Shown here piece after piece: positions 16,110-64,000 of a DNA stretch of 64,000 nt. The DNA is taken from positions 18,117,561-18,181,560 of the forward strand of contig NC_052618.1 of the NCBI RefSeq assembly GCF_016545825.1, written 5' to 3'. The translations under genes and the position numbers were made by a program. Position 1 is the stretch's first letter, and every line of letters starts with the position of its first letter. The notes under the pieces were generated by a model. It was given only the letters and a program-made list of their open reading frames with translations. It was not told where the DNA came from and made no database searches. This stretch comes from Eucalyptus grandis (taxonomy: Eukaryota; Streptophyta; Magnoliopsida; Myrtales; Myrtaceae).

Positions 16110-16111
<2 letters not shown>

Positions 16112-16150
<39 letters not shown>
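16112..16150. repeat. (TC)n microsatellite
   Basis: An uninterrupted TC run of about 19 repeats inside the minisatellite, replacing the second half of one unit. Confidence 0.95.

Positions 16151-16154
<4 letters not shown>

Positions 16155-16541: not shown

Positions 16542-16576
<35 letters not shown>
16542..16576. repeat. (AC)n microsatellite
   Basis: An uninterrupted AC run of about 17 repeats, located where the unit would normally read CATCCTCAATAG. Confidence 0.95.
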
Positions 16577-23244: not shown

Positions 23245-23361
23245 ACAAGCAATAATGATACATGGGACAGATCATAGTGTATGCCTTCTGAAATTTTTGC
23301 TCTTTCGACCAAATTAGTTCCATTTTGAAGTTCTATACATATCCTGAGAAGCCATCCAAGA

Positions 23362-24945: not shown

Positions 24946-25236
24946 ATGCCTGAATTGTTCACTACTACAAATATAGAAGGGGACGAAGTTCTAATTATAT
25001 CGTTAAAAAGAAAACGAAAGAAAAAGAAGTACGACAAAGAAGTCGGCAAGGATCTTAAATGCATCATAAGTTGTCCCCGAAAAGACAGAATTGCTTATCT
25101 TTTAGACCAATCATTAGCCTCTATCGACACTACCCATAAAGACATGGTCGGGAGAATCTTGCTCGTGGTCCATATCGACCGGGATGGAATCTCTTGCCCG
25201 AGCATTACTGAATTTTTTTTAAAAGTACAAGTTTAA
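24946..25236 (+). CDS. Hypothetical lysine-rich open frame abutting the array
   Basis: 96 codons from ATG 24946 (the frame stays open upstream to about 24874 from a non-ATG codon). It has a KRKRKKKKYDKEVGK basic tract and a C-terminal half (ISCPRKDRIAYLLDQSLASI, then GRILLVVHIDRDGI) that looks more protein-like than random. The last codons and stop fall inside the first bases of the retrotransposon array (from about 25221), so any original C-terminus was lost there. I do not recognise the family. It may be the truncated end of a host gene or old transposon coding sequence, or chance. Confidence 0.2.
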   Translation: MPELFTTTNIEGDEVLIISLKRKRKKKKYDKEVGKDLKCIISCPRKDRIAYLLDQSLASIDTTHKDMVGRILLVVHIDRDGISCPSITEFFLKVQV

Positions 25237-25401
25237 AGCCGAGCTACTTGTCACTTTGATAGAGCTTTGATATACTTGCACTAAGTAAAGGTTTAACTCG
25301 AAAGAGACCTTTATGTATGTATATTAATCTTACTGAAACTTTGGCTGTATGGTTTTTAAAAATTTTATTTTGAAATTTTGTTTTACAAACAAAGTGGGGA
25401 T
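25221..25401 (+). mobile_element. Truncated 3' tail of a further copy at the array's left edge
   Basis: From AAAAGTACAAGTTTAAAGCC at about 25221 to the LTR1 start, the sequence matches the 181 bp that precede every other LTR in the array (for example 30681-30860). Left of 25221 the match stops abruptly. It is the remnant of an internal region whose remainder is absent. Confidence 0.9.
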
Positions 25402-26182
25402 TGTTGGAATTTTGTTTGTTAAAACAAAATAAGTGCTTTTTACTTTGTCCCACATAGAAAAGGTGGGAGCAGGAGGATTAGTTTATTAATGAGGAATTTC
25501 CTTTTGTAGTTAAAGGAGTGATTAGGTGGGGCTAGACCCACCATACCCGCGTGCGGGGTGCGCGGATAATTGCGCGATTTTGGCGCGATTATTTGGCGCA
25601 CTTAGCACTTTGCACGCCTGCGCGCCCGCGGTTTAATTAGCATTAATCCCTTGCTTTTTATTTATTTATTTTATTTTATTTTATATTTTAGTTCAAAGGT
25701 TGCCTTTTAATTTGAGAATTTCGGAAATGAAATATAAATGAAAATTCGAAATTCTATTTAAACATATATATTTATATTCCGAATTTTATTTGTGCCTTTT
25801 CAAGACAACCTTTGGAAAATTACTTATTCGGTTTTTTAATTTATCCGAAGGATTGCAATTGTTCGTTTTTTCGACTTCTTCCGAAGAGTCGCGTTGGTTT
25901 ATCCGAACAATTTTCTAAAGACATGTTTGTTCGCAATTTTCACGAAGAGTTGCAAGACCGTTTCATATAAATACTTGTCATTTTCGGAAAGAAATAAGTG
26001 GTCATTTTTCGAGTCTTCTTTCTGAAAAACTGCAGCCAATTTTTCGATTGTTTTTTAGAGAGACCCTGGAGAAATATTAGAATTGCTATCTAGTATTCTC
26101 ACTTGAGACTTTGTTGTATCCTGGAGGAAATTTGCCGGTGACCATTAGCAACGTAGTGGGGCAAATAAATCCTTAAAGAAAG
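25402..26182 (+). repeat. LTR1 of the array (representative LTR, about 0.78 kb; 3' border approximate)
   Basis: Starts TGTTGGAATTTTG directly after the polypurine tract AAAGTGGGGAT. A CpG-rich block with repeated GCGCGATT/GGCGCA words lies at about 25546-25635. A TATA box TATAAATA at 25966-25973 puts the transcript start (start of R) near 26000. The 3' border cannot be fixed because the sequence is periodic. TGATATCACGCC at 26183 is the only weak resemblance to an initiator-Met primer binding site. CA dinucleotides at 26149-26150 and 26162-26163 are alternative LTR ends. Later LTRs in the window begin at the positions given for each unit. Confidence 0.75.
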
Positions 26183-26291
26183 TGATATCACGCCTCAAAG
26201 TCCGAGTTGTTTTTACTCGATCCGATTTCATTGTTCTACCCATTTCGCAGACTTATCTTTTACAACAATTTTAAGGATTTATTTTGCTGCA

Positions 26292-27007
26292 ATGGAGTCG
26301 GAGACAATCAAAGTTATGAATCAAGATATGGTCAAACTAGACCGGTTCGATGGGAACAATTTTGCTCGCTGGAGGGACAAGATGATGTTCTTACTCACTG
26401 CTCCGAAGATCTCCTACATTCTGGATCCTAACTTGGCGCCTATAGAAGATCCTACGCCTACTTTCGATGGAGGACAGCCAAGTGCAGAAGCCATTGAGAG
26501 GGTTAATAAGGAAAAGAAGAAACGTGCGGAGGATGAATTACTTTGTCGAGGACACATTCTGAACACACTCTCCGATCGTCTGTACGACTTATTCACTGAA
26601 ATGAAGTCGGCCAGAGAAATTTGGAATGCACTGGAATTCAAGTACAAAGCGGAGGAGCAAGGTACCAACAAATATCTAATTGCAAAGTATTTTGATTACA
26701 AGTTTATTGATACTAAGCCCTTGCTGGAACAAGTCCATGAATTGCAAGTGATTGTGAATAAGATTCGTGCTCTCAAGATTGATATTCCGAAGCTTTTCAA
26801 GTTGGAGCAATTATTGCGAAATTGCCTCCAAGTTGGAAAGACTATGGAAAAAGGCTGATTCACAAGTCGGAGGACTTTACTTTGGAGCAAATACAGAAAC
26901 ATCTTCGCATTGAGGAAGAGTCACGTTCACGTGATAATTCTGTTTTGTATAATTCCAAGGTGAATTTTGTGGATAAAAACGGAAACTCGGCCAGAACTTC
27001 AAAGTAA
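26292..27007 (+). pseudogene. gag: Copia Gag, unit 1 (frameshifted)
   Basis: Gag forms the cytoplasmic virus-like particle that packages the element RNA. The frame starts at MESETIKVMNQDMVKL, contains the family-typical RFDGNNFARWRDKMMFLL, and carries a UBN2-type Gag region (REIWNALEFKYKAEEQGTNK). In this unit one A is missing near 26788 (ATTCCGAAG against ATTCCAGAAG elsewhere). The frame therefore ends at 26858, and the rest of Gag is read in another frame up to the stop at 27005-27007. Confidence 0.9.
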
Positions 27008-30000
27008 AAAGCGGGGGGCATAAATTCAAGAGAACACAAAAGAAGCAAAAGGGTTGCTGTTTTGTATGTGGCAAACAGGGACACTACGCGAAGGATTGCT
27101 TTCAACGTAAGAGCTTTTCAAAGGACAAGAACATTCCGGTGGTGAAAGCAGATGCAAATCTGGTTGAAGAAAATTATGTAGCCATGATTTCGAACATGTT
27201 TTCGAACATGGAAATTTCTGAAATAAATGATGCTATGGCTATGGTTTCTGAAATTAATTCTACCACTGTCCAATCCAGTTGGTGGATAGATTCTGAGCAA
27301 CTGTTCATGTGTGTAAGGACAAATACATGTTCAAGCAATTTGAAGAAATTGTTGACTCAAGTGTTCAAGAGGTCCCGATGGCGAATAATGCTCTTGCAAA
27401 GGTTGCTGGAAAAGGCACGGTGGAGATAGACTTCACTTCTGGAAAGAAGATAACTCTTCTTAATGTGTTATTTATACCCGAAATTAGGAAGAACCTAGTT
27501 TCTATTGATTTACTTTGTAAGAGGGGGTTTCGGGTTTTGTTTGAATCCGACAAGGTTATCCTATCGAAAAATGGGCTGTTTGTTGGGAAGGGTTATGCCA
27601 ATGATGGCATGTATCAACTGAGTATCAATAATAATATTTCTAGTTCTGCTTATACTTGTCGAGTCTTCAATTTTATGGCATAGTAGGTTGGCACATATAA
27701 ATTTTCGTTATTTGAAGAATATGAAAAAATTAGACTTGATAAATTTCAGTGGCGAATTTGATAAATGTGAAATATGTGCTAAGTCAAAACTTACTAAGAA
27801 GCCATTTCCTAGTGTTAAAAGAAATTCGAATTTATTGGATTTGGTTCATAGTGATATATGTGAATTTAATGGTATGCTAACACGTGGAGGTAAAAGGTAT
27901 TTTATTACTTTTGTGGATGATTGTAGTAGGTTCTTATATGTTTATCTCATGAGATCGAAGGATGAAGCATTTACCATGTTTAAGAAATATAAAGCTGAAG
28001 TAGAGAATCAATTAGAAAAGAAAATCAAAGTTCTACGATCAGATAGAGGTGGAGAATATTTCTTAAATGAATTCTCTTCATTTTGTGAAGAACATGGTAT
28101 TATTCATCAAGCTTCAGCACCATATACTCCACAACAAAATGGTTTGGCTGAAAGGAAAAATCGATCTCTTGGAGAAATGGTCAATTGTATGCTTTCAAAT
28201 TCAAAGCTACCAATTAATCTTTGGGGAGAAGCATTACTTGCTGCATGCTATATTCATAATAGAATACCTTCCAAGAAAAATGACATAACCCCTTATGAGA
28301 TATGGAAAGGTAGAAAGCCAAATTTGTCATATCTTAAAGTGTGGGGGTGTTTAGCGTACTACCGAGCTCCAGATCCTAAGAGAACAAAGCTCGGTCCTAG
28401 AGCTATCAAAAGTGTTTTCATAGGGTATGCTGAAAATAGTAAAGCTTATAGGCTTCTTGATTTAGAGTCTAATGTCATAGTAGAGTCGAGAGACGTCGAA
28501 TTCTTTGAGAATAAATGTTTTACAAGTTCTGAAATGATTGAAAATAATTCAAGATCTAGGGAAACTCAAAGTGATTTTCAAGAGAAAGAAACGAATCCTA
28601 AAGACATGATTGAACCAAGGAGAAGTACTAGAGCTAGGAAAATAAAAGACTTAGGTCCTGATTTTATTACTCATGTTTTTCTTGTTGAAGGAGATGGAGA
28701 TAATAATGTGGTAAATAAATACCCTTTAGTGTTAAATTTAGAAGATGATCCTGGAAGCTTTGATGATGCTATGTCTTCTAGAGATGCTTCTTTTGGAAAG
28801 AAGCTGTGAATGATGAAATGGACTCCATTATGTCCAATAATACTTGGGTATTAGTAGATTTACCAAAAGGATCAAAACCTATTGGAAGCAAATGGGTTTT
28901 TAGAAGAAAATATCATTCTGATGGTTCTATTCAAGCTTTTAAAGCTAGGCTTGTAGTTAAGGGATATAGACAAAAAGAAGGTATAGATTATTTTGATACA
29001 TATGCTCCTGTTGCACGTATAACTTCCATTCGAGTTCTTTTTGCTCTAGCTTCCATTTATGATCTTTGTGTTCATCAAATGGATGTTAAAACTGCTTTCT
29101 TAAATGGAGACTTAAATGAGGAGATTTACATGGAACAACCGGAGGGTTTTGTTCTTCCTGGAAATGAAAGAAAAGTATGTAAATTGATTAAGTCTCTTTA
29201 TGGACTTAAGCAAGCTCCTAAGCAGTGGCATGAAAAGTTTAATTCGGTCATATTGTCAAATGGTTTCATCAATAATAGTGCCGATAGGTGTATATACTCT
29301 AAATTCACTAAAGACTATGGTGTCTTAGTGTGCTTGTATGTTGATGATATGCTTATCTTTGGAACGAATATGACTGGAGTTAATGAAACTAAGAAGTATC
29401 TAACTTCCATGTTTAAAATGAAGGACTTGGGTGAAGTAGATACTATCTTAGGTATTAAAGTCAAGCAAAATAGTGGGGGTTATTCTTTAAGCCAATGTAG
29501 TTATGTTGAAAAATTATTAAATAAATTTCAACATCTTGGTTTTAAAGAAATAAGTACTCCATTTGATTCTAGTATTAAATTAAATTATAATACTGGTAGA
29601 GCGGTGGCACAACTAGAATATGCAAGTGCTATAGGGTCTTTAATGTATGCGATGCATTGTACTAGACCCGATATTGCTTTTTCTGTATGCAAGTTGAGTA
29701 GGTATACAAGTAATCCAAGTACAGAACATTGGAGAGCTATTACTAGAATTTTTGGTTATCTTAAGAGAACTAAAAATTTAGGATTGTTCTACAATAATTA
29801 TCCGGCTGTATTAGAAGGATACACCGATGCTAGTTGGATTACAAGTGTGGGAGATGAGCGTTCCACTTCTGGATGGATCTTCACACTAGCTGGAGGTGCT
29901 GTATCTTGGGCGAGCAAGAAACAGACATGTATAACTCACTCAACAATGGAATCTGAATTCATTGCTTTGGCGGCAGCTGGGAAAGAGGCTGAATGGATTA

Positions 30001-30290
30001 GAAATTTGTTGTTGGATATCAAATTATGGCCTAGTCCTATGCCTCCTATTTCTATCCACTTTGTGATAGTCGTGGCCACTTTGGCAAGAGCCTATAGTAG
30101 CACCTATAATGGTAAGTCTAGACATATTAGTTTAAGACATGAATATGTGAGACAATTGATTAAAGATGGTACCATAACAATTGTCTATGTGAGGTCAAGT
30201 AAAAATCTTGCCGATCCTTTGACGAAGGCTTTACCAAGACATATGGTAATAACGACCTCACAAGAAATGGGGCTGAAACCCTTTAATTAA
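27008..30290 (+). pseudogene. pol: Copia Pol, unit 1 (four frame breaks)
   Basis: Order: CCHC zinc knuckle (CFVCGKQGHYAKDC, about 27059-27100), protease, integrase, RT and RNase H. Breaks: a 6-G run just after the gag stop; loss of one G in the protease active site near 27294, so the catalytic DSGA is not read; an extra T near 27655 between protease and integrase; loss of one T near 28793. Integrase (27688-28809) and RT/RNase H (28806-30290, 494 residues with YVDD) are each open. The RNase H tail reads through because two indels (CACTTTGTG and GTGGCC, about 30058-30078) compensate, but the HCDS residues are lost. Confidence 0.9.
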
Positions 30291-31747
30291 AATCACCAAT
30301 AATGGTAACCCGACCTTTTCTAGAACATCACTAGTTACAAGGTTTAATGGGTAAGAACAAGTTATTGAATGTGATTGTTTGATACCGACATAGCCCCGAT
30401 ATGAGAAGTCGGTATTGTCATTACGTTTTGTAGGCTGAATTGAATTCTCAATGAAGTATGATACAAGTTTGTAGTGTGTTGATAGTAACAGAAACACATG
30501 GTAGATACTTCACCTATATGAGCTTAGAAGTGGTGCCGCTTCTTACGAAAGTGAGGGTTGCTTTCTAGAGAGCTCATGAAACAGGATCAAGCACAAGGCC
30601 ATAATAGTGCGGAGTAATATAGAAATTCTCGCTGAAACAAGAGGTTAGTGTATGTGTGGTATGTCCGGTTCTATTACATAAAAGTACAAGTTTAAAGCCG
30701 AGCTACTTGTCACTTTGATAGAGCTTTGATATACTTGCACTAAGTAAAGGTTTAACTCGAAAGAGACCTTTATGTATGTATATTAATCTTACTGAAACTT
30801 TGGCTGTATGGTTTTTAAAAAATTTATTTTGAAATTTTGTTTTACAAACAAAGTGGGGATTGTTGGAATTTTGTTTGTTAAAACAAAATAAGTGCTTTTT
30901 ACTTTGTCCCACATAGAAAAGGTGGGAGCAGGAGGATTAGTTTATTAATGAGGAATTTCCTTTTGTAGTTAAAGGAGTGATTAGGTGGGGCTAGACCCAC
31001 CATACCCGCGTGCGGGTGCGCGGATAATTGCGCGATTTTGGCGCGATTATTTGGCGCACTTAGCACTTTGCACGCCTGCGCGCCCGCGGTTTAATTAGCA
31101 TTAATCCCTTGCTTTTTATTTATTTATTTTATTTTATTTTATATTTTAGTTCAAAGGTTGCCTTTTAATTTGAGAATTTCGGAAATGAAATATAAATGAA
31201 AATTCGAAATTCTATTTAAACATATATATTTATATTCCGAATTTTATTTGTGCCTTTTCAAGACAACCTTTGGAAAATTACTTATTCGGTTTTTTAATTT
31301 ATCCGAAGGATTGCAATTGTTCGTTTTTTCGACTTCTTCCGAAGAGTCGCGTTGGTTTATCCGAACAATTTTCTAAAGACATGTTTGTTCGCAATTTTCA
31401 CGAAGAGTTGCAAGACCGTTTCATATAAATACTTGTCATTTTCGGAAAGAAATAAGTGGTCATTTTTCGAGTCTTCTTTCTGAAAAACTGCAGCCAATTT
31501 TTCGATTGTTTTTTAGAGAGACCCTGGAGAAATATTAGAATTGCTATCTAGTATTCTCACTTGAGACTTTGTTGTATCCTGGAGGAAATTTGCCGGTGAC
31601 CATTAGCAACGTAGTGGGGCAAATAAATCCTTAAAGAAAGTGATATCACGCCTCAAAGTCCGAGTTGTTTTTACTCGATCCGATTTCATTGTTCTACCCA
31701 TTTCGCAGACTTATTTTACAACAATTTTAAGGATTTATTTTGCTGCA

Positions 31748-32464
31748 ATGGAGTCGGAGACAATCAAAGTTATGAATCAAGATATGGTCAAACTAGACCG
31801 GTTCGATGGGAACAATTTTGCTCGCTGGAGGGACAAGATGATGTTCTTACTCACTGCTCCGAAGATCTCCTACATTCTGGATCCTAACTTGGCGCCTATA
31901 GAAGATCCTACGCCTACTTTCGATGGAGGACAGCCAAGTGCAGAAGCCATTGAGAGGGTTAATAAGGAAAAGAAGAAACGTGCGGAGGATGAATTACTTT
32001 GTCGAGGACACATTCTGAACACACTCTCCGATCGTCTGTACGACTTATTCACTGAAATGAAGTCGGCCAGAGAAATTTGGAATGCACTGGAATTCAAGTA
32101 CAAAGCGGAGGAGCAAGGTACCAACAAATATCTAATTGCAAAGTATTTTGATTACAAGTTTATTGATACTAAGCCCTTGCTGGAACAAGTCCATGAATTG
32201 CAAGTGATTGTGAATAAGATTCGTGCTCTCAAGATTGATATTCCAGAAGCTTTTCAAGTTGGAGCAATTATTGCGAAATTGCCTCCAAGTTGGAAAGACT
32301 ATGGAAAAAGGCTGATTCACAAGTCGGAGGACTTTACTTTGGAGCAAATACAGAAACATCTTCGCATTGAGGAAGAGTCACGTTCACGTGATAATTCTGT
32401 TTTGTATAATTCCAAGGTGAATTTTGTGGATAAAAACGGAAACTCGGCCAGAACTTCAAAGTAA
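31748..32464 (+). CDS. gag: Copia Gag, unit 2 (238 aa, open)
   Basis: Complete for the copies seen here: 238 codons from the ATG of MESETIK to a TAA directly after NSARTSK. The frame remains open 108 bp further upstream only to a GTG in the leader, so the ATG at 31748 is the sensible start. There is no zinc knuckle inside this frame; the CCHC box lies downstream in a different frame, after a 5-G run. Intact Gag frames also occur in units 3, 4 and 6. Confidence 0.88.
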   Translation: MESETIKVMNQDMVKLDRFDGNNFARWRDKMMFLLTAPKISYILDPNLAPIEDPTPTFDGGQPSAEAIERVNKEKKKRAEDELLCRGHILNTLSDRLYDLFTEMKSAREIWNALEFKYKAEEQGTNKYLIAKYFDYKFIDTKPLLEQVHELQVIVNKIRALKIDIPEAFQVGAIIAKLPPSWKDYGKRLIHKSEDFTLEQIQKHLRIEEESRSRDNSVLYNSKVNFVDKNGNSARTSK

Positions 32465-35400
32465 AAAGCGGGGGCATAAATTCAAGAGAACACAAAAGAA
32501 GCAAAAGGGTTGCTGTTTTGTATGTGGCAAACAGGGACACTACGCCAAGGATTGCTTTCAACGTAAGAGCTTTTCAAAGGACAAGAACATTCCGGTGGTG
32601 AAAGCAGATGCAAATCTGGTTGAAGAAAATTATGTAGCCATGATTTCGAACATGTTTTCGAACATGGAAATTTCTGAAATAAATGATGCTATGGCTATGG
32701 TTTCTGAAATTAATTCTACCACTGTCCAATCCAGTTGGTGGATAGATTCTGAGCAACTGTTCATGTGTGTAAGGACAAATACATGTTCAAGCAATTTGAA
32801 GAAATTGTTGACTCAAGTGTTCAAGAGGTCCCGATGGCGAATAATGCTCTTGCAAAGGTTGCTGGAAAAGGCACGGTGGAGATAGACTTCACTTCTGGAA
32901 AGAAGATAACTCTTCTTAATGTGTTATTTATACCCGAAATTAGGAAGAACCTAGTTTCTATTGATTTACTTTGTAAGAGGGGGTTTCGGGTTTTGTTTGA
33001 ATCCGACAAGGTTATCCTATCGAAAAATGGGCTGTTTGTTGGGAAGGGTTATGCCAATGATGGCATGTATCAACTGAGTATCAATAATAATATTTCTAGT
33101 TCTGCTTATACTGTCGTCGAGTCTTCAATTTTATGGCATAGTAGGTTGGCACATATAAATTTTCGTTATTTGAAGAATATGAAAAAATTAGACTTGATAA
33201 ATTTCAGTGGCGAATTTGATAAATGTGAAATATGTGCTAAGTCAAAACTTACTAAGAAGCCATTTCCTAGTGTTAAAAGAAATTCGAATTTATTGGATTT
33301 GGTTCATAGTGATATATGTGAATTTAATGGTATGCTAACACGTGGAGGTAAAAGGTATTTTATTACTTTTGTGGATGATTGTAGTAGGTTCTTATATGTT
33401 TATCTCATGAGATCGAAGGATGAAGCATTTACCATGTTTAAGAAATATAAAGCTGAAGTAGAGAATCAATTAGAAAAGAAAATCAAAGTTCTACGATCAG
33501 ATAGAGGTGGAGAATATTTCTTAAATGAATTCTCTTCATTTTGTGAAGAACATGGTATTATTCATCAAGCTTCAGCACCATATACTCCACAACAAAATGG
33601 TTTGGCTGAAAGGAAAATCGATCTCTTGGAGAAATGGTCAATTGTATGCTTTCAAATTCAAAGCTACCAATTAATCTTTGGGGAGAAGCATTACTTGCTG
33701 CATGCTATATTCATAATAGAATACCTTCCAAGAAAAATGACATAACCCCTTATGAGATATGGAAAGGTAGAAAGCCAAATTTGTCATATCTTAAAGTGTG
33801 GGGGTGTTTAGCGTACTACCGAGCTCCAGATCCTAAGAGAACAAAGCTCGGTCCTAGAGCTATCAAAAGTGTTTTCATAGGGTATGCTGAAAATAGTAAA
33901 GCTTATAGGCTTCTTGATTTAGAGTCTAATGTCATAGTAGAGTCGAGAGACGTCGAATTCTTTGAGAATAAATGTTTTACAAGTTCTGAAATGATTGAAA
34001 ATAATTCAAGATCTAGGGAAACTCAAAGTGATTTTCAAGAGAAAGAAACGAATCCTAAAGACATGATTGAACCAAGGAGAAGTACTAGAGCTAGGAAAAT
34101 AAAAGACTTAGGTCCTGATTTTATTACTCATGTTTTTCTTGTTGAAGGAGATGGAGATAATAATGTGGTAAATAAATACCCTTTAGTGTTAAATTTAGAA
34201 GATGATCCTGGAAGCTTTGATGATGCTATGTCTTCTAGAGATGCTTCTTTTGGAAAGAAGCTGTGAATGATGAAATGGACTCCATTATGTCCAATAATAC
34301 TTGGGTATTAGTAGATTTACCAAAAGGATCAAAACCTATTGGAAGCAAATGGGTTTTTAGAAGAAAATATCATTCTGATGGTTCTATTCAAGCTTTTAAA
34401 GCTAGGCTTGTAGTTAAGGGATATAGACAAAAAGAAGGTATAGATTATTTTGATACATATGCTCCTGTTGCACGTATAACTTCCATTCGAGTTCTTTTTG
34501 CTCTAGCTTCCATTTATGATCTTTGTGTTCATCAAATGGATGTTAAAACTGCTTTCTTAAATGGAGACTTAAATGAGGAGATTTACATGGAACAACCGGA
34601 GGGTTTTGTTCTTCCTGGAAATGAAAGAAAAGTATGTAAATTGATTAAGTCTCTTTATGGACTTAAGCAAGCTCCTAAGCAGTGGCATGAAAAGTTTAAT
34701 TCGGTCATATTGTCAAATGGTTTCATCAATAATAGTGCCGATAGGTGTATATACTCTAAATTCACTAAAGACTATGGTGTCTTAGTGTGCTTGTATGTTG
34801 ATGATATGCTTATCTTTGGAACGAATATGACTGGAGTTAATGAAACTAAGAAGTATCTAACTTCCATGTTTAAAATGAAGGACTTGGGTGAAGTAGATAC
34901 TATCTTAGGTATTAAAGTCAAGCAAAATAGTGGGGGTTATTCTTTAAGCCAATGTAGTTATGTTGAAAAATTATTAAATAAATTTCAACATCTTGGTTTT
35001 AAAGAAATAAGTACTCCATTTGATTCTAGTATTAAATTAAATTATAATACTGGTAGAGCGGTGGCACAACTAGAATATGCAAGTGCTATAGGGTCTTTAA
35101 TGTATGCGATGCATTGTACTAGACCCGATATTGCTTTTTCTGTATGCAAGTTGAGTAGGTATACAAGTAATCCAAGTACAGAACATTGGAGAGCTATTAC
35201 TAGAATTTTTGGTTATCTTAAGAGAACTAAAAATTTAGGATTGTTCTACAATAATTATCCGGCTGTATTAGAAGGATACACCGATGCTAGTTGGATTACA
35301 AGTGTGGGAGATGAGCGTTCCACTTCTGGATGGATCTTCACACTAGCTGGAGGTGCTGTATCTTGGGCGAGCAAGAAACAGACATGTATAACTCACTCAA

Positions 35401-35746
35401 CAATGGAATCTGAATTTATTGCTTTGGCGGCAGCTGGGAAAGAGGCTGAATGGATTAGAAATTTGTTGTTGGATATCAAATTATGGCCTAGTCCTATGCC
35501 TCCTATTTCTATCCACTTTGTGATAGTCGTGCCACTTTGGCAAGAGCCTATAGTAGCACCTATAATGGTAAGTCTAGACATATTAGTTTAAGACATGAAT
35601 ATGTGAGACAATTGATTAAAGATGGTACCATAACAATTGTCTATGTGAGGTCAAGTAAAAATCTTGCCGATCCTTTGACGAAGGCTTTACCAAGACATAT
35701 GGTAATAACGACCTCACAAGAAATGGGGCTGAAACCCTTTAATTAA
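32465..35746 (+). pseudogene. pol: Copia Pol, unit 2 (broken)
   Basis: Zinc knuckle and protease start in a frame open from about 32424 to 32885, then shift where one G is missing near 32750 (DSGA lost). The protease-integrase junction reads through because it has TACTGTCGTCGAG (near 33113), a form seen only here. Integrase breaks at an A-run one base short near 33615, just after the catalytic Glu in the NGLAERK region. It resumes at 33634-34266, then the short T run near 34249 shifts again. RT/RNase H is open 34263-35591 and ends early through the indels around 35516-35532; the last 69 codons are in another frame (35537-35746). Confidence 0.9.
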
Positions 35747-37211
35747 AATCACCAATAATGGTAACCCGACCTTTTTCTAGAACATCACTAGTTACAAGGT
35801 TTAATGGGTAAGAACAAGTTATTGAATGTGATTGTTTGATACCGACATAGCCCCGATATGAGAAGTCGGTATTGTCTCATTACGTTTTGTAGGCTGAATT
35901 GAATTCTCAATGAAGTATGATACAAGTTTGTAGTGTGTTGATAGTAACAGAAACACATGGTAGATACTTCACCTATATGAGCTTAGAAGTGGTGCCGCTT
36001 CTTACGAAAGTGAGGGTTGCTTTCTAGAGAGCTCATGAAACAGGATCAAGCACAAGGCCATAATAGTGCGGAGTAATATAGAAATTCTCGCTGAAACAAG
36101 AGGTTAGTGTATGTGTGGTATGTCCGGTTCTATTACATAAAAGTACAAGTTTAAAGCCGAGCTACTTGTCACTTTGATAGAGCTTTGATATACTTGCACT
36201 AAGTAAAGGTTTAACTCGAAAGAGACCTTTATGTATGTATATTAATCTTACTGAAACTTTGGCTGTATGGTTTTTAAAAAATTTTATTTTGAAATTTTGT
36301 TTTACAAACAAAGTGGGGATTGTTGGAATTTTGTTTGTTAAAACAAAATAAGTGCTTTTTACTTTGTCCCACATAGAAAAGGTGGGAGCAGGAGGATTAG
36401 TTTATTAATGAGGAATTTCCTTTTGTAGTTAAAGGAGTGATTAGGTGGGGCTAGACCCACCATACCCGCGTGCGGGTGCGCGGATAATTGCGCGATTTTG
36501 GCGCGATTATTTGGCGCACTTAGCACTTTGCACGCCTGCGCGCCCGCGGTTTAATTAGCATTAATCCCTTGCTTTTTATTTATTTATTTTATTTTATTTT
36601 ATATTTTAGTTCAAAGGTTGCCTTTTAATTTGAGAATTTCGGAAATGAAATATAAATGAAAATTCGAAATTCTATTTAAACATATATATTTATATTCCGA
36701 ATTTTATTTGTGCCTTTTCAAGACAACCTTTGGAAAATTACTTATTCGGTTTTTTAATTTATCCGAAGGATTGCAATTGTTCGTTTTTTCATTTCGACTT
36801 CTTCCGAAGAGTCGCGTTGGTTTATCCGAACAATTTTCTAAAGACATGTTTGTTCGCAATTTTCACGAAGAGTTGCAAGACCGTTTCATATAAATACTTG
36901 TCATTTTCGGAAAGAAAAAGTGGTCATTTTTCGAGTCTTCTTTCTGAAAAACTGCAGCCAATTTTTCGATTGTTTTTTAGAGAGACCCTGGAGAAATATT
37001 AGAATTGCTATCTAGTATTCTCACTTGAGACTTTGTTGTATCCTGGAGGAAATTTGCCGGTGACCATTAGCAACGTAGTGGGGCAAATAAATCCTTAAAG
37101 AAAGTGATATCACGCCTCAAAGTCCGAGTTGTTTTTACTCGATCCGATTTCATTGTTCTACCCATTTCGCAGACTTATTTTACAACAATTTTAAGGATTT
37201 ATTTTGCTGCA

Positions 37212-52138: not shown

Positions 52139-53598
52139 AATCACCAATAATGGTAACCCGACCTTTTTCTAGAACATCACTAGTTACAAGGTTTAATGGG
52201 TAAGAACAAGTTATTGAATGTGATTGTTTGATACCGACATAGCCCCGATATGAGAAGTCGGTATTGTCTGTTACGTTTTGTAGGCTGAATTGAATTCTCA
52301 ATGAAGTATGATACAAGTTTGTAGTGTGTTGATAGTAACAGAAACACATGGTAGATACTTCACCTATATGAGCTTAGAAGTGGTGCCGCTTCTTACGAAA
52401 GTGAGGGTTGCTTTCTAGAGAGCTCATGAAACAGGATCAAGCACAAGGCCATAATAGTGCGGAGTAATATAGAAATTCTCGCTGAAACAAGAGGTTAGTG
52501 TATGTGTGGTATGTCCGGTTCTATTACATAAAAGTACAAGTTTAAAGCCGAGCTACTTGTCACTTTGATAGAGCTTTGATATACTTGCACTAAGTAAAGG
52601 TTTAACTCGAAAGAGACCTTTATGTATGTATATTAATCTTACTGAAACTTTGGCTGTATGGTTTTTAAAAATTTTATTTTGAAATTTTGTTTTACAAACA
52701 AAGTGGGGATTGTTGGAATTTTGTTTGTTAAAACAAAATAAGTGCTTTTTACTTTGTCCCACATAGAAAAGGTGGGAGCAGGAGGATTAGTTTATTAATG
52801 AGGAATTTCCTTTTGTAGTTAAAGGAGTGATTAGGTGGGGCTAGACCCACCATACCCGCGTGCGGGTGCGCGGATAATTGCGCGATTTTGGCGCGATTAT
52901 TTGGCGCACTTAGCACTTTGCACGCCTGCGCGCCCGCGGTTTAATTAGCATTAATCCCTTGCTTTTTATTTATTTATTTTATTTTATTTTATATTTTAGT
53001 TCAAAGGTTGCCTTTTAATTTGAGAATTTCGGAAATGAAATATAAATGAAAATTCGAAATTCTATTTAACATATATATATTTATATTCCGAATTTTATTT
53101 GTGCCTTTTCAAGACAACCTTTGGAAAATTACTTATTCGGTTTTTTAATTTATCCGAAGGATTGCAATTGTTCGTTTTTTCGACTTCTTCCGAAGAGTCG
53201 CGTTGGTTTATCCGAACAATTTTCTAAAGACATGTTTGTTCGCAATTTTCACGAAGAGTTGCAAGACCGTTTCATATAAATACTTGTCATTTTCGGAAAG
53301 AAATAAGTGGTCATTTTTCGAGTCTTCTTTCTGAAAAACTGCAGCCAATTTTTCGATTGTTTTTTAGAGAGACCCTGGAGAAATATTAGAATTGCTATCT
53401 AGTATTCTCACTTGAGACTTTGTTGTATCCTGGAGGAAATTTGCCGGTGACCATTAGCAACGTAGTGGGGCAAATAAATCCTTAAAGAAAGTGATATCAC
53501 GCCTCAAAGTCCGAGTTGTTTTTACTCGATCCGATTTCATTGTTCTACCCATTTCGCAGACTTATTTTACAACAATTTTAAGGATTTATTTTGCTGCA

Positions 53599-54315
53599 AT
53601 GGAGTCGGAGACAATCAAAGTTATGAATCAAGATATGGTCAAACTAGACCGGTTCGATGGGAACAATTTTGCTCGCTGGAGGGACAAGATGATGTTCTTA
53701 CTCACTGCTCCGAAGATCTCCTACATTCTGGATCCTAACTTGGCGCCTATAGAAGATCCTACGCCTACTTTCGATGGAGGACAGCCAAGTGCAGAAGCCA
53801 TTGAGAGGGTTAATAAGGAAAAGAAGAAACGTGCGGAGGATGAATTACTTTGTCGAGGACACATTCTGAACACACTCTCCGATCGTCCGTACGACTTATT
53901 CACTGAAATGAAGTCGGCCAGAGAAATTTGGAATGCACTGGAATTCAAGTACAAAGCGGAGGAGCAAGGTACCAACAAATATCTAATTGCAAAGTATTTT
54001 GATTACAAGTTTATTGATACTAAGCCCTTGCTGGAACAAGTCCATGAATTGCAAGTGATTGTGAATAAGATTCGTGCTCTCAAGATTGATATTCCAGAAG
54101 CTTTTCAAGTTGGAGCAATTATTGCGAAATTGCCTCCAAGTTGGAAAGACTATGGAAAAAGGCTGATTCACAAGTCGGAGGACTTTACTTTGGAGCAAAT
54201 ACAGAAACATCTTCGCATTGAGGAAGAGTCACGTTCACGTGATAATTCTGTTTTGTATAATTCCAAGGTGAATTTTGTGGATAAAAACGGAAACTCGGCC
54301 AGAACTTCAAAGTAA
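53599..54315 (+). CDS. gag: Copia Gag, unit 6 (238 aa, open)
   Basis: Full-length frame ending at the common TAA, with SDRPYDL as in unit 3 and TAPKISY as in unit 2, so it is a mosaic of variants found elsewhere in the array. Confidence 0.88.
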   Translation: MESETIKVMNQDMVKLDRFDGNNFARWRDKMMFLLTAPKISYILDPNLAPIEDPTPTFDGGQPSAEAIERVNKEKKKRAEDELLCRGHILNTLSDRPYDLFTEMKSAREIWNALEFKYKAEEQGTNKYLIAKYFDYKFIDTKPLLEQVHELQVIVNKIRALKIDIPEAFQVGAIIAKLPPSWKDYGKRLIHKSEDFTLEQIQKHLRIEEESRSRDNSVLYNSKVNFVDKNGNSARTSK

Positions 54316-57300
54316 AAAGCGGGGGCATAAATTCAAGAGAACACAAAAGAAGCAAAAGGGTTGCTGTTTTGTATGTGGCAAACAGGGGACACTACGCCAA
54401 GGATTGCTTTCAACGTAAGAGCTTTTCAAAGGACAAGAACATTCCGGTGGTGAAAGCAGATGCAAATCTGGTTGAAGAAAATTATGTAGCCATGATTTCG
54501 AACATGTTTTCGAACATGGAAATTTCTGAAATAAATGATGCTATGGCTATGGTTTCTGAAATTAATTCTACCACTGTCCAATCCAGTTGGTGGATAGATT
54601 CTGAGCAACTGTTCATGTGTGTAAGGACAAATACATGTTCAAGCAATTTGAAGAAATTGTTGACTCAAGTGTTCAAGAGGTCCCGATGGCGAATAATGCT
54701 CTTGCAAAGGTTGCTGGAAAAGGCACGGTGGAGATAGACTTCACTTCTGGAAAGAAGATAACTCTTCTTAATGTGTTATTTATACCCGAAATTAGGAAGA
54801 ACCTAGTTTCTATTGATTTACTTTGTAAGAGGGGGTTTCGGGTTTTGTTTGAATCCGACAAGGTTATCCTATCGAAAAATGGGCTGTTTGTTGGGAAGGG
54901 TTATGCCAATGATGGCATGTATCAACTGAGTATCAATAATAATATTTCTAGTTCTGCTTATACTTGTCGAGTCTTCAATTTTATGGCATAGTAGGTTGGC
55001 ACATATAAATTTTCGTTATTTGAAGAATATGAAAAAATTAGACTTGATAAATTTCAGTGGCGAATTTGATAAATGTGAAATATGTGCTAAGTCAAAACTT
55101 ACTAAGAAGCCATTTCCTAGTGTTAAAAGAAATTCGAATTTATTGGATTTGGTTCATAGTGATATATGTGAATTTAATGGTATGCTAACACGTGGAGGTA
55201 AAAGGTATTTTATTACTTTTGTGGATGATTGTAGTAGGTTCTTATATGTTTATCTCATGAGATCGAAGGATGAAGCATTTACCATGTTTAAGAAATATAA
55301 AGCTGAAGTAGAGAATCAATTAGAAAAGAAAATCAAAGTTCTACGATCAGATAGAGGTGGAGAATATTTCTTAAATGAATTCTCTTCATTTTGTGAAGAA
55401 CATGGTATTATTCATCAAGCTTCAGCACCATATACTCCACAACAAAATGGTTTGGCTGAAAGGAAAAATCGATCTCTTGGAGAAATGGTTAATTGTATGC
55501 TTTCAAATTCAAAGCTACCAATTAATCTTTGGGGAGAAGCATTACTTGCTGCATGCTATATTCATAATAGAATACCTTCCAAGAAAAATGACATAACCCC
55601 TTATGAGATATGGAAAGGTAGAAAGCCAAATTTGTCATATCTTAAAGTGTGGGGGTGTTTAGCGTACTACCGAGCTCCAGATCCTAAGAGAACAAAGCTC
55701 GGTCCTAGAGCTATCAAAAGTGTTTTCATAGGGTATGCTGAAAATAGTAAAGCTTATAGGCTTCTTGATTTAGAGTCTAATGTCATAGTAGAGTCGAGAG
55801 ACGTCGAATTCTTTGAGAATAAATGTTTTACAAGTTCTGAAATGGTTGAAAATAATTCAAGATCTAGGGAAACTCAAAGTGATTTTCAAGAGAAAGAAAC
55901 GAATCCTAAAGACATGATTGAACCAAGGAGAAGTACTAGAGCTAGGAAAATAAAAGACTTAGGTCCTGATTTTATTACTCATGTTTTTCTTGTTGAAGGA
56001 GATGGAGATAATAATGTGGTAAATAAATACCCTTTAGTGTTAAATTTAGAAGATGATCCTGGAAGCTTTGATGATGCTATGTCTTCTAGAGATGCTTCTT
56101 TTTGGAAAGAAGCTGTGAATGATGAAATGGACTCCATTATGTCCAATAATACTTGGGTATTAGTAGATTTACCAAAAGGATCAAAACCTATTGGAAGCAA
56201 ATGGGTTTTTAGAAGAAAATATCATTCTGATGGTTCTATTCAAGCTTTTAAAGCTAGGCTTGTAGTTAAGGGATATAGACAAAAAGAAGGTATAGATTAT
56301 TTTGATACATATGCTCCTGTTGCACGTATAACTTCCATTCGAGTTCTTTTTGCTCTAGCTTCCATTTATGATCTTTGTGTTCATCAAATGGATGTTAAAA
56401 CTGCTTTCTTAAATGGAGACTTAAATGAGGAGATTTACATGGAACAACCGGAGGGTTTTGTTCTTCCTGGAAATGAAAGAAAAGTATGTAAATTGATTAA
56501 GTCTCTTTATGGACTTAAGCAAGCTCCTAAGCAGTGGCATGAAAAGTTTAATTCGGTCATATTGTCAAATGGTTTCATCAATAATAGTGCCGATAGGTGT
56601 ATATACTCTAAATTCACTAAAGACTATGGTGTCTTAGTGTGCTTGTATGTTGATGATATGCTTATCTTTGGAACGAATATGACTGGAGTTAATGAAACTA
56701 AGAAGTATCTAACTTCCATGTTTAAAATGAAGGATTTGGGTGAAGTAGATACTATCTTAGGTATTAAAGTCAAGCAAAATAGTGGGGGTTATTCTTTAAG
56801 CCAATGTAGTTATGTTGAAAAATTATTAAATAAATTTCAACATCTTGGTTTTAAAGAAATAAGTACTCCATTTGATTCTAGTATTAAATTAAATTATAAT
56901 ACTGGTAGAGCGGTGGCACAACTAGAATATGCAAGTGCTATAGGGTCTTTAATGTATGCGATGCATTGTACTAGACCCGATATTGCTTTTTCTGTATGCA
57001 AGTTGAGTAGGTATACAAGTAATCCAAGTACAGAACATTGGAGAGCTATTACTAGAATTTTTGGTTATCTTAAGAGAACTAAAAATTTAGGATTGTTCTA
57101 CAATAATTATCCGGCTGTATTAGAAGGATACACCGATGCTAGTTGGATTACAAGTGTGGGAGATGAGCGTTCCACTTCTGGATGGATCTTCACACTAGCT
57201 GGAGGTGCTTGTATCTTGGGCGAGCAAGAAACAGACATGTATAACTCACTCAACAATGGAATCTGAATTTATTGCTTTGGCGGCAGCTGGGAAAGAGGCT

Positions 57301-57591
57301 GAATGGATTAGAAATTTGTTGTTGGATATCAAATTATGGCCTAGTCCTATGCCTCCTATTTCTATCCACTGTGATAGTCGGGCCACTTTGGCAAGAGCCT
57401 ATAGTAGCACCTATAATGGTAAGTCTAGACATATTAGTTTAAGACATGAATATGTGAGACAATTGATTAAAGATGGTACCATAACAATTGTCTATGTGAG
57501 GTCAAGTAAAAATCTTGCCGATCCTTTGACGAAGGCTTTACCAAGACATATGGTAATAACGACCACAAGAAATGGGGCTGAAACCCTTTAA
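54316..57591 (+). pseudogene. pol: Copia Pol, unit 6 (longest integrase-RT frame)
   Basis: An extra G near 54386 breaks the CCHC knuckle; further breaks are the single-G protease site near 54602 and an extra T near 54964. The frame 54996-57266 is then open for 756 residues. It holds integrase with D56, D119 and E155 (35 residues between the last two, the usual DDE spacing), RT with YVDD at 551-554, and the start of RNase H with YTDASW at 712-717. An extra T near 57210 shifts the frame. The RNase H end with [11 protein letters not shown] is in 57205-57591, whose last residues change because TC is missing near 57565. Confidence 0.9.
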
Positions 57592-59060
57592 TTAAAATCA
57601 CCAATAATGGTAACCCGACCTTTTTCTAGAACATCACTAGTTACAAGGTTTAATGGGTAAGAACAAGTTATTGAATGTGATTGTTTGATACCGACATAGC
57701 CCCGATATGAGAAGTCGGTATTGTCTGTTACGTTTTGTAGGCTGAATTGAATTCTCAATGAAGTATGATACAAGTTTGTAGTGTGTTGATAGTAACAGAA
57801 ACACATGGTAGATACTTCACCTATATGAGCTTAGAAGTGGTGCCGCTTCTTACGAAAGTGAGGGTTGCTTTCTAGAGAGCTCATGAAACAGGATCAAGCA
57901 CAAGGCCATAATAGTGCGGAGTAATATAGAAATTCTCGCTGAAACAAGAGGTTAGTGTATGTGTGGTATGTCCGGTTCTATTACATAAAAGTACAAGTTT
58001 AAAGCCGAGCTACTTGTCACTTTGATAGAGCTTTGATATACTTGCACTAAGTAAAGGTTTAACTCGAAAGAGACCTTTATGTATGTATATTAATCTTACT
58101 GAAACTTTGGCTGTATGGTTTTTAAAAATTTTATTTTGAAATTTTGTTTTACAAACAAAGTGGGGGATTGTTGGAATTTTGTTTGTTAAAACAAAATAAG
58201 TGCTTTTTACTTTGTCCCACATAGAAAAGGTGGGAGCAGGAGGATTAGTTTATTAATGAGGAATTTCCTTTTGTAGTTAAAGGAGTGATTAGGTGGGGCT
58301 AGACCCACCATACCCGCGTGCGGGTGCGCGGATAATTGCGCGATTTTGGCGCGATTATTTGGCGCACTTAGCACTTTGCACGCCTGCGCGCCCGCGGTTT
58401 AATTAGCATTAATCCCTTGCTTTTTTTATTTATTTATTTTATTTTATTTTATATTTTAGTTCAAAGGTTGCCTTTTAATTTGAGAATTTCGGAAATGAAA
58501 TATAAATGAAAATTCGAAATTCTATTTAAACATATATATTTATATTCCGAATTTTATTTGTGCCTTTTCAAGACAACCTTTGGAAAATTACTTATTCGGT
58601 TTTTTTTTATCCGAAGGATTGCAATTGTTCGTTTTTTCATTTCGACTTCTTCCGAAGAGTCGCGTTGGTTTATCCGAACAATTTTCTAAAGACATGTTTG
58701 TTCGCAATTTTCACGAAGAGTTGCAAGACCGTTTCATATAAATACTTGTCATTTTCGGAAAGAAAAAGTGGTCATTTTCGAGTCTTCTTTCTGAAAAAAC
58801 TGCAGCCAATTTTTCGATTGTTTTTTTAGAGAGACCCTGGAGAAATATTAGAATTGCTATCTAGTATTCTCACTTGAGACTTTGTTGTATCCTGGAGGAA
58901 ATTTGCCGGTGACCATTAGCAACGTAGTGGGGCAAATAAATCCTTAAAGAAAGTGATATCACGCCTCAAAGTCCGAGTTGTTTTTACTCGATCCGATTTC
59001 ATTGTTCTACCCATTTCGCAGACTTATTTTACAACAATTTTAAGGATTTATTTTGCTGCA

Positions 59061-59776
59061 ATGGAGTCGGAGACAATCAAAGTTATGAATCAAGATATGG
59101 TCAAACTAGACCGGTTCGATGGGAACAATTTTGCTCGCTGGAGGGACAAGATGATGTTCTTACTCACTGCTCTGAAGATCTCCTACATTCTGGATCCTAA
59201 CTTGGCGCCTATAGAAGATCCTACGCCTACTTTCGATGGAGGACAGCCAAGTGCAGAAGCCATTGAGAGGGTTAATAAGGAAAAGAAGAAACGTGCGGAG
59301 GATGAATTACTTTGTCGAGGACACATTCTGAACACACTCTCCGATCGTCGTACGACTTATTCACTGAAATGAAGTCGGCCAGAGAAATTTGGAATGCACT
59401 GGAATTCAAGTACAAAGCGGAGGAGCAAGGTACCAACAAATATCTAATTGCAAAGTATTTTGATTACAAGTTTATTGATACTAAGCCCTTGCTGGAACAA
59501 GTCCATGAATTGCAAGTGATTGTGAATAAGATTCGTGCTCTCAAGATTGATATTCCAGAAGCTTTTCAAGTTGGAGCAATTATTGCGAAATTGCCTCCAA
59601 GTTGGAAAGACTATGGAAAAAGGCTGATTCACAAGTCGGAGGACTTTACTTTGGAGCAAATACAGAAACATCTTCGCATTGAGGAAGAGTCACGTTCACG
59701 TGATAATTCTGTTTTGTATAATTCCAAGGTGAATTTTGTGGATAAAAACGGAAACTCGGCCAGAACTTCAAAGTAA
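59061..59776 (+). pseudogene. gag: Copia Gag, unit 7 (frameshifted)
   Basis: One base is missing near 59349 (GATCGTCGTACG). The first part ends at 59372 and the rest is read in a second frame from about 59345 to the common TAA. It carries TALKISY as in unit 3. Confidence 0.9.
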
Positions 59777-62700
59777 AAAGCGGGGGCATAAATTCAAGAG
59801 AACACAAAAGAAGCAAAAGGGTTGCTGTTTTGTATGTGGCAAACAGGGACACTACGCCAAGGATTGCTTTCAACGTAAGAGCTTTTCAAAGGACAAGAAC
59901 ATTCCGGTGGTGAAAGCAGATGCAAATCTGGTTGAAGAAAATTATGTAGCCATGATTTCGAACATGTTTTCGAACATGGAAATTTCTGAAATAAATGATG
60001 CTATGGCTATGGTTTCTGAAATTAATTCTACCACTGTCCAATCCAGTTGGTGGATAGATTCTGGAGCAACTGTTCATGTGTGTAAGGACAAATACATGTT
60101 CAAGCAATTTGAAGAAATTGTTGACTCAAGTGTTCAAGAGGTCCTGATGGCGAATAATGCTCTTGCAAAGGTTGCTGGAAAAGGCACGGTGGAGATAGAC
60201 TTCACTTCTGGAAAGAAGATAACTCTTCTTAATGTGTTATTTATACCCGAAATTAGGAAGAACCTAGTTTCTATTGATTTACTTTGTAAGAGGGGGTTTC
60301 GGGTTTTGTTTGAATCCGACAAGGTTATCCTATCGAAAAATGGGCTGTTTGTTGGGAAGGGTTATGCCAATGATGGCATGTATCAACTGAGTATCAATAA
60401 TAATATTTCTAGTTCTGCTTATACTTGTCGAGTCTTCAATTTTATGGCATAGTAGGTTGGCACATATAAATTTTCGTTATTTGAAGAATATGAAAAAATT
60501 AGACTTGATAAATTTCAGTGGCGAATTTGATAAATGTGAAATATGTGCTAAGTCAAAACTTACTAAGAAGCCATTTCCTAGTGTTAAAAGAAATTCGAAT
60601 TTATTGGATTTGGTTCATAGTGATATATGTGAATTTAATGGTATGCTAACACGTGGAGGTAAAAGGTATTTTATTACTTTTGTGGATGATTGTAGTAGGT
60701 TCTTATATGTTTATCTCATGAGATCGAAGGATGAAGCATTTACCATGTTTAAGAAATATAAAGCTGAAGTAGAGAATCAATTAGAAAAGAAAATCAAAGT
60801 TCTACGATCAGATAGAGGTGGAGAATATTTCTTAAATGAATTCTCTTCATTTTGTGAAGAACATGGTATTATTCATCAAGCTTCAGCACCATATACTCCA
60901 CAACAAAATGGTTTGGCTGAAAGGAAAAATCGATCTCTTGGAGAAATGGTTAATTGTATGCTTTCAAATTCAAAGCTACCAATTAATCTTTGGGGAGAAG
61001 CATTACTTGCTGCATGCTATATTCATAATAGAATACCTTCCAAGAAAAATGACATAACCCCTTATGAGATATGGAAAGGTAGAAAGCCAAATTTGTCATA
61101 TCTTAAAGTGTGGGGGTGTTTAGCGTACTACCGAGCTCCAGATCCTAAGAGAACAAAGCTCGGTCCTAGAGCTATCAAAAGTGTTTTCATAGGGTATGCT
61201 GAAAATAGTAAAGCTTATAGGCTTCTTGATTTAGAGTCTAATGTCATAGTAGAGTCGAGAGACGTCGAATTCTTTGAGAATAAATGTTTTACAAGTTCTG
61301 AAATGGTTGAAAATAATTCAAGATCTAGGGAAACTCAAAGTGATTTTCAAGAGAAAGAAACGAATCCTAAAGACATGATTGAACCAAGGAGAAGTACTAG
61401 AGCTAGGAAAATAAAAGACTTAGGTCCTGATTTTATTACTCATGTTTTTCTTGTTGAAGGAGATGGAGATAATAATGTGGTAAATAAATACCCTTTAGTG
61501 TTAAATTTAGAAGATGATCCTGGAAGCTTTGATGATGCTATGTCTTCTAGAGATGCTTCTTTTTGGAAAGAAGTGAATGATGAAATGGACTCCATTATGT
61601 CCAATAATACTTGGGTATTAGTAGATTTACCAAAAGGATCAAAACCTATTGGAAGCAAATGGGTTTTTAGAAGAAAATATCATTCTGATGGTTCTATTCA
61701 AGCTTTTAAAGCTAGGCTTGTAGTTAAGGGATATAGACAAAAAGAAGGTATAGATTATTTTGATACATATGCTCCTGTTGCACGTATAACTTCCATTCGA
61801 GTTCTTTTTGCTCTAGCTTCCATTTATGATCTTTGTGTTCATCAAATGGATGTTAAAACTGCTTTCTTAAATGGAGACTTAAATGAGGAGATTTACATGG
61901 AACAACCGGAGGGTTTTGTTCTTCCTGGAAATGAAAGAAAAGTATGTAAATTGATTAAGTCTCTTTATGGACTTAAGCAAGCTCCTAAGCAGTGGCATGA
62001 AAAGTTTAATTCGGTCATATTGTCAAATGGTTTCATCAATAATAGTGCCGATAGGTGTATATACTCTAAATTCACTAAAGACTATGGTGTCTTAGTGTGC
62101 TTGTATGTTGATGATATGCTTATCTTTGGAACGAATATGACTGGAGTTAATGAAACTAAGAAGTATCTAACTTCCATGTTTAAAATGAAGGATTTGGGTG
62201 AAGTAGATACTATCTTAGGTATTAAAGTCAAGCAAAATAGTGGGGGTTATTCTTTAAGCCAATGTAGTTATGTTGAAAAATTATTAAATAAATTTCAACA
62301 TCTTGGTTTTAAAGAAATAAGTACTCCATTTGATTCTAGTATTAAATTAAATTATAATACTGGTAGAGCGGTGGCACAACTAGAATATGCAAGTGCTATA
62401 GGGTCTTTAATGTATGCGATGCATTGTACTAGACCCGATATTGCTTTTTCTGTATGCAAGTTGAGTAGGTATACAAGTAATCCAAGTACAGAACATTGGA
62501 GAGCTATTACTAGAATTTTTGGTTATCTTAAGAGAACTAAAAATTTAGGATTGTTCTACAATAATTATCCGGCTGTATTAGAAGGATACACCGATGCTAG
62601 TTGGATTACAAGTGTGGGAGATGAGCGTTCCACTTCTGGATGGATCTTCACACTAGCCGGAGGTGCTTTGTATCTTGGGCGAGCAAGAAACAGACATGTA

Positions 62701-63057
62701 TAACTCACTCAACAATGGAATCTGAATTCATTGCTTTGGCGGCAGCTGGGAAAGAGGCTGAATGGATTAGAAATTTGTTGTTGGATATCAAATTATGGCC
62801 TAGTCCTATGCCTCCTATTTCTATCCACTTGTGATAGTCGTGCCACTTTGGCAAGAGCCTATAGTAGCACCTATAATGGTAAGTCTAGACATATTAGTTT
62901 AAGACATGAATATGTGAGACAATTGATTAAAGATGGTACCATAACAATTGTCTATGTGAGGTCAAGTAAAAATCTTGCCGATCCTTTGACGAAGGCTTTA
63001 CCAAGACATATGGTAATAACGACCTCACAAGAAATGGGGCTGAAACCCTTTAATTAA
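59777..63057 (+). pseudogene. pol: Copia Pol, unit 7 (748-codon integrase-RT frame)
   Basis: Zinc knuckle and protease with DSGA are joined in one frame (59736-60452). An extra T near 60425 shifts before integrase. Then 60457-62703 is open for 748 residues through integrase and RT, including an in-frame loss of three bases near 61573 (one Ala missing after FWKE). Two extra Ts near 62668 in the RNase H GGA-SWAS region shift the frame again. Further indels near 62829 and 62841 put the C-terminus in another frame up to 63057. A CTG for CCG change in the protease (EVLMANN) is private. Confidence 0.9.
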
Positions 63058-63628
63058 AATCACCAATAATGGTAACCCGACCTTTTCTAGAACATCACTA
63101 GTTACAAGGTTTAATGGGTAAGAACAAGTTATTGAATGTGATTGTTTGATACCGACATAGCCCCGATATGAGAAGTCGGTATTGTCTGTTACGTTTTGTA
63201 GGCTGAATTGAATTCTCAATGAAGTATGATACAAGTTTGTAGTGTGTTGATAGTAACAGAAACACATGGTAGATACTTCACCTATATGAGCTTAGAAGTG
63301 GTGCCGCTTCTTACGAAAGTGAGGGTTGCTTTCTAGAGAGCTCATGAAACAGGATCAAGCACAAGGCCATAATAGTGCGGAGTAATATAGAAATTCTCGC
63401 TGAAACAAGAGGTTAGTGTATGTGTGGTATGTCCGGTTCTATTACATAAAAGTACAAGTTTAAAGCCGAGCTACTTGTCACTTTGATAGAGCTTTGATAT
63501 ACTTGCACTAAGTAAAGGTTTAACTCGAAAGAGACCTTTATGTATGTATATTAATCTTACTGAAACTTTGGCTGTATGGTTTTTAAAAATTTTATTTTGA
63601 AATTTTGTTTTACAAACAAAGTGGGGAT

Positions 63629-64000
63629 TGTTGGAATTTTGTTTGTTAAAACAAAATAAGTGCTTTTTACTTTGTCCCACATAGAAAAGGTGGGAGCAGG
63701 AGGATTAGTTTATTAATGAGGAATTTCCTTTTGTAGTTAAAGGAGTGATTAGGTGGGGCTAGACCCACCATACCCGCGTGCGGGTGCGCGGATAATTGCG
63801 CGATTTTGGCGCGATTATTTGGCGCACTTAGCACTTTGCACGCCTGCGCGCCCGCGGTTTAATTAGCATTAATCCCTTGCTTTTTATTTATTTATTTTAT
63901 TTTATTTTATATTTTAGTTCAAAGGTTGCCTTTTAATTTGAGAATTTCGGAAATGAAATATAAATGAAAATTCGAAATTCTATTTAAACATATATATTTA
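63629..64000 (+). repeat. LTR8, cut by the window edge
   Basis: Begins TGTTGGAATTTTG after AAAGTGGGGAT and follows the other LTRs to the last base of the window. Whether another internal region follows cannot be seen. Confidence 0.95.

Follow-up and report, generated by a model that had tools for sequence, protein, structure and literature searches.

How a long terminal repeat (LTR) retrotransposon comes to stand in a long head-to-tail row, and how far such a row in an assembly can be trusted, are the questions raised by a 64-kb window of Eucalyptus grandis DNA (the whole stretch analysed, 64,000 nucleotides), in which a row of copia units fills the stretch from 25.2 to 64.0 kb. We refer to the contig carrying the window as C7 and to further contigs of the same assembly as C11, C9, C8, and C3.

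Array layout and element identity

There are eight LTR starts in the window, at 25402, 30861, 36321, 41785, 47250, 52711, 58169, and 63629, spaced successively by 5459, 5460, 5464, 5465, 5461, 5458, and 5460 bp. The original prediction gave eight LTR starts at a spacing of 5458-5465 bp, a single LTR between consecutive internal regions, and near identity of the units, and all three were borne out: the computed spacings span this range, neighbouring internal regions are separated by one LTR and not two, and identity to unit 1 is 99.3-99.7% for units 2-7. The C7 array exhibits the alternation of internal regions with single shared LTRs by which a tandem LTR retrotransposon is recognized. The mean 31-mer count per 500-bp bin rises from about 1 in the left flank to 5.4-7.6 from position 25501 on, and repeat offsets in the window lie mostly at 5456-5467, which argues that the periodicity is not due to chance. 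The window contains seven complete units and an eighth LTR that is cut at the window end, in the following order:

25217..25401, + strand, left array edge, final ~182 bp of an internal region; joined to host sequence at ~25217 with ~1 bp in common, without an LTR end and without a target site duplication (TSD)
25402..26267, + strand, LTR 1, with start and end motifs
26268..30860, + strand, internal region 1
30861..31723, + strand, LTR 2
31724..36320, + strand, internal region 2
36321..37187, + strand, LTR 3
37188..41784, + strand, internal region 3; copia domain matches in pieces, frames interrupted
41785..42651, + strand, LTR 4
42652..47249, + strand, internal region 4
47250..48117, + strand, LTR 5
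48118..52710, + strand, internal region 5
52711..53574, + strand, LTR 6
53575..58168, + strand, internal region 6
58169..59036, + strand, LTR 7
59037..63628, + strand, internal region 7
63629..64000, + strand, LTR 8, truncated where the window stops; array extends to about C7:18187632

Past the window the array continues with unit 8 and then LTR 9 (C7:18186652-18187516), and its right edge falls ~120 bp beyond LTR 9, inside a further internal region. The whole array in the assembly comprises 8 internal regions and 9 LTRs over about 44.9 kb. The predicted shared-LTR copia tandem of at least seven units holds for the assembly, with eight units once the next stretch is included; the left start proposed for it does not. 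Position 25221, given as the start of the array, lies ~180 bp before LTR 1 in the 3' part of an internal region, which rules it out as an LTR start. LTR 1 begins at 25402 with TGTTGG, right behind a purine-rich tract (25391-25401). What precedes LTR 1, from ~25217 to 25401, is the terminal 3' part of an internal region, so the array starts inside a unit.

The pieces of unit 3 match, in order, the Pfam models Retrotran_gag_2, Pol_BBD, gag_pre-integrs, rve, SH3_retrovirus, and RVT_2, with zf-CCHC just below the cut-off and no RNase H model among the matches. This is the Ty1/copia arrangement, with gag and protease-side domains and with integrase before reverse transcriptase. The LTRs are about 865 bp long and run from TGTTGG to CAACA, and the TG...CA ends together with a 5-bp TSD, found in 6/6 single copies read and absent from the C7 array itself, are likewise those of Ty1/copia elements. 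The longest stop-to-stop frame in the array is at most 778 aa and no unit has one open gag-pol frame, but the indels look like assembly error (see below), so the interrupted frames and the coding state of the units have no biological interpretation.

We identified a perfect 15-nt inverted repeat at the expected primer binding site:

26163..26177, + strand, arm 1, 15 nt, inside LTR 1, perfect complement of arm 2
26270..26284, + strand, arm 2, 2 nt after LTR 1, at the expected primer binding site

Arm 1 sits ~105 bp before the LTR end and is present in 9/9 LTRs examined; arm 2 is present in 26/26 units, with one base altered in the six C11 units. The usual motif of a tRNA-Met primer binding site was not seen at the expected place after the LTR. 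The LTR complement at this place suggests a putative self-priming type of primer site. Elements of the TAR lineage are predicted to self-prime in the accessible text of Neumann et al. 2019 (PMC6317226), and in this likeness the copia family of the array perhaps belongs to the TAR lineage of Ty1/copia, an assignment to be taken as a lead only.

Related loci in the genome

A search for further tandem sites, as proposed in the original prediction, found three more multi-unit loci of the copia family among the matches scored, here called C11, C9A, and C9B. With a 600-bp query across the internal-LTR junction, the best 40 of 699 candidates were scored; 21 fell in multi-unit loci (9 in C7, 6 in C11, 4 in C9A, and 2 in C9B) and 19 were isolated. 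A C11-type query again placed 21 of its best 40 (of 730 candidates) at the same four loci. Among the loci read, none has more than eight units, where a satellite would have very many.

Six of the 19 isolated junctions were read. Each belongs to a single element flanked by a 5-bp repeat (GTTAT, GGTGC, AGGGG, CGAAC, GAAGC, and TTCAT). In four of them the two LTRs differ from each other by 0.25, 0.47, 0.74, and 1.09% (the copies C5b and C3 were left out for their shortened LTRs). A family that seems so recently active might have inserted repeatedly at one place, independently or nested. The internal regions of the array are separated by one LTR rather than two, however, and the units are in register with no host sequence between them. 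The single shared LTRs refute such repeated insertion, to which we assign almost no credence.

The cleanest relative is the C11 array, which has 7 LTRs, 6 internal regions, and a perfect 5-bp TSD (AATTA) on both sides. There are no N gaps in the 50 kb around it. The C11 flanks lie side by side in six paralogs, which represent paralogous empty sites; base-level alignment of five of the six found an exact single AATTA site in two and one extra base in three. Judged from its sequence, the C11 array is one integration site carrying six units in the assembly. This array with its TSD and empty sites, together with the multi-unit rows at other loci, indicates that shared-LTR rows are probably a real kind of structure, and it is unlikely that the whole kind is an artefact. 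A single TSD would be left by the integration of one element that later gained units by recombination, but a ready-made multimer inserted whole would leave one TSD as well, and the count of six units at C11 comes from the assembly that also gives the C7 count.

The remaining two loci are rows of the same copia in opposite orientation that carry halves of one common GTCAG target repeat:

C9:35985738-35997506, - strand, C9B row, AATTA flank at the 5' end and GTCAG at the 3' end
C9:36642548-36665059, + strand, C9A row, GTCAG at the 5' end, cut LTR at the 3' end, N gap ~110 bp further

A mis-join or an inversion between the two rows is the likely source of this pattern as read from their ends. The first C9B unit carries a mixture of alleles of both subfamily types. 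Gene conversion was considered for this unit and put aside, as the types alternate site by site, more like a mixed consensus. Since these loci look mis-joined or inverted, the assembly can be wrong around copia units.

Array edges, unit differences, and reliability of the assembly

Both edges of the C7 array were inspected; neither falls at an LTR end, no TSD was found, and at each edge ~1 bp is common to the array and the sequence joined to it. The absence of LTR edges would suit an end-joined concatemer, whereas a multimer inserted by integrase would have LTR edges. The left-flank host sequence is also found on C8 (97%) and C3 (89%), where it continues past the C7 left breakpoint in a stretch of ~470 bp common to both. 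The counterpart site on C8 and C3 contains no piece of this copia, the nearest match (66%) lying more than 4 kb further on in C3. The host continuation expected after the left breakpoint was not found on C7: among 38 matches, its first 473 bases are covered only by C8 and C3, and the other 36 match a short repeat at its far end only.

The left flank contains a BAHD acyltransferase ORF (Pfam Transferase) at window positions 13040-14377 and a diverged BAHD fragment at 23336-24213 that is ~76-79% like this ORF in three pieces. The left part of the window also contains the reverse transcriptase remnant (RVT_2) of a second copia at 5535-5933, diverged repeats of 187 and 317 bp with TC runs at 15794-16543, and a 74-bp minisatellite of 3.4 copies at 21766-22016.

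The array is followed on the right by part of a gene of the ACD6-like family, which we take to be defence-related:

C7:18187633-18205684, exon of an ACD6-like ankyrin gene and upstream sequence, the exon cut at the right array edge; N gap at the end

The first 600 bases of this flank match sites on C11 (11.66-12.54 Mb), C9 (36.03-36.13 Mb, and one at 42.45 Mb), and C8 (13.5 Mb), and the only C7 site of the family is the right edge of the array. From base 44 on, the flank matches the 3' flank of the C11 array over at least 12.6 kb (main blocks 88-97%), while bases 1-43 align to C11 flank sequence that lies ~646 bp away from the insertion point of the C11 array. This arrangement would fit a C7 array that derives from a copy of the C11 insertion, moved and broken, or two loci joined through copia units. 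Synteny of the right flank with the C3 paralog was rejected, as the matches at 12.7-18 kb seem to belong to another copia-like element, which the left flank matches too.

An assembly artefact at C7, with fewer units in the genome or with an ACD6-like cluster contig attached to the C7 flank across near-identical copia units, would account for the location of the right-flank family on other contigs, the missing 473-bp host continuation, and the N gap ~18 kb beyond the array, and the C9 rows that look mis-joined point the same way. In an older E. grandis assembly, in which the tag letters presumably stand for chromosomes, the named matches to the family are tagged K (14) or E (2) and none G, among 58 proteins of ~257-817 aa. 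The lack of G names is weak evidence, given this range of protein lengths and since a truncated gene may be unannotated. Against this reading, a join made between copia units would not alone account for edges at which host sequence runs into the interior of a unit. The C11 array, moreover, has empty sites and no N in the surrounding 50 kb. We consider an artefact at C7 improbable.

The differences among the units bear on the same question. The 21 unit pairs in the window differ by 2-9 substitutions versus 7-19 indel events, and indels outnumber substitutions in most pairs, which suggests assembly error, so that very few unit differences can be trusted. Thirty of the 39 indel states are of 1 bp, and 16/39 lie within runs of at least three equal bases. 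Homopolymer error as the sole source of the indels was rejected on this last count. We take the E. grandis assembly to have been built from nanopore reads. Given the indel excess, the ACD6-like family on C11, C9, and C8, and the N gap at 18 kb, the exact number of C7 units and the right-hand join are not secure.

We compared the units in clean columns, defined as those away from gaps and with the chosen outgroups agreeing. Variable clean internal columns number 4/4098 in C7, 9/3848 in C11, and 16/3904 in C9A (13 of these in one unit), and likeness among units is far higher within an array than across arrays. With so few variable columns, the arrays are either young or kept alike. Clean LTR columns are nearly invariant (C9A 0/768, C11 1/684, and C7 9/764, eight of the C7 columns being confined to a single misaligned run of one unit), as would be expected of a multimer inserted ready-made. 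At C7, three sites combine into two pairs whose distributions among the units are incompatible; this may reflect exchange between units, or possibly noise, and argues weakly for later exchange over insertion of a finished multimer. LTR-centred conversion, in which LTRs would be less variable than internal regions, was rejected: it appeared in pairwise counts only, and in the raw columns of the three arrays (p 0.12) the LTRs were the more variable. Lower LTR than internal variation in the cleaned columns rests on few sites and was dropped as evidence.

Origin and relation to known tandem elements

We favour, as reasonably probable, a shared-LTR array of a young Ty1/copia element, a structure of a real kind, formed by recombination after a single integration and with its edges broken later. 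One element would have integrated, leaving a 5-bp TSD such as that seen at the C11 relative, and homologous recombination between LTRs or between whole units would have raised the unit number, whether by unequal exchange, during sister-chromatid repair, or with cDNA or one-LTR circles coming in as partners. Exchange would have kept the units of an array alike. Later non-homologous breakage would have stripped both outer LTR edges of the C7 array and left it between the BAHD-gene region and the ACD6-like gene fragment. We infer the recombination step and the edge breakage from what the assembly contains: head-to-tail order (8 units and 9 LTRs in register at C7), one LTR per unit, near identity, non-LTR edges, related rows, and one TSD with empty sites.

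The main biological rival to recombination, which we regard as unlikely, is the ready-made multimer already mentioned, which could be an extrachromosomal concatemer or a tandem copy (cDNA or transcript) made from a one-LTR circle; its unit number would have been fixed at insertion. This route is held possible in a survey of tandem LTR-retrotransposon structures in plants (Morales-Diaz et al. 2025, PMC11899658), which, in its accessible text, left undecided whether the origin is complex insertion or recombination.

In the recombination reading as in its rival, the C7 array is a long example of an already known kind, as rows of tandem LTR retrotransposons are known in plants. In the tandems of PMC11899658, as its accessible text describes them, internal regions alternate with single shared LTRs as they do here, and perfect TSDs are found in 10/28 curated tandems. 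One TSD surrounds each of two described rice loci, and one described locus has a 5-bp TSD, as AATTA surrounds the C11 array; no such repeat surrounds the C7 array. Curated tandems begin and end with an LTR, as does the C11 array, in contrast to the C7 array. The two detailed rice loci contain two internal regions each, compared to eight in C7 and six in C11, and 82% of the 28 curated rice tandems are gypsy elements, whereas the family here is copia. The scan in that survey had a locus size limit of 40 kb and may have missed rows as long as the C7 array. By the descriptions cited there, the units of TRIM tandem arrays and of kangaroo tandems also share the internal LTR, but TRIMs are short and non-coding and the kangaroo case is centromeric. 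Ogre satellites are likewise tandem DNA from LTR retrotransposons (Vondrak et al. 2019, PMC7004042); in the part of that paper available, their unit is a short subrepeat from the 3' untranslated part, whereas the unit here is an LTR with a whole internal region. We found no description of an eight-unit copia array in the open-licence literature.

A bolder and doubtful proposal is that the copia family repeatedly forms long arrays at separate loci (8, 6, and at least 4 units), en route to a satellite, and that the arrays act as breakpoints through which parts of the ACD6-like cluster are carried to a different chromosome and a segment of chromosome 9 may have been inverted. Should the C7 join be real, the array would also have served as a breakpoint beside the ACD6-like gene fragment. 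The copia family is young, its rows differ in size within a single genome, and one row has a TSD and empty-site paralogs, which makes the family a workable test case for the origin of tandem LTR retrotransposons.
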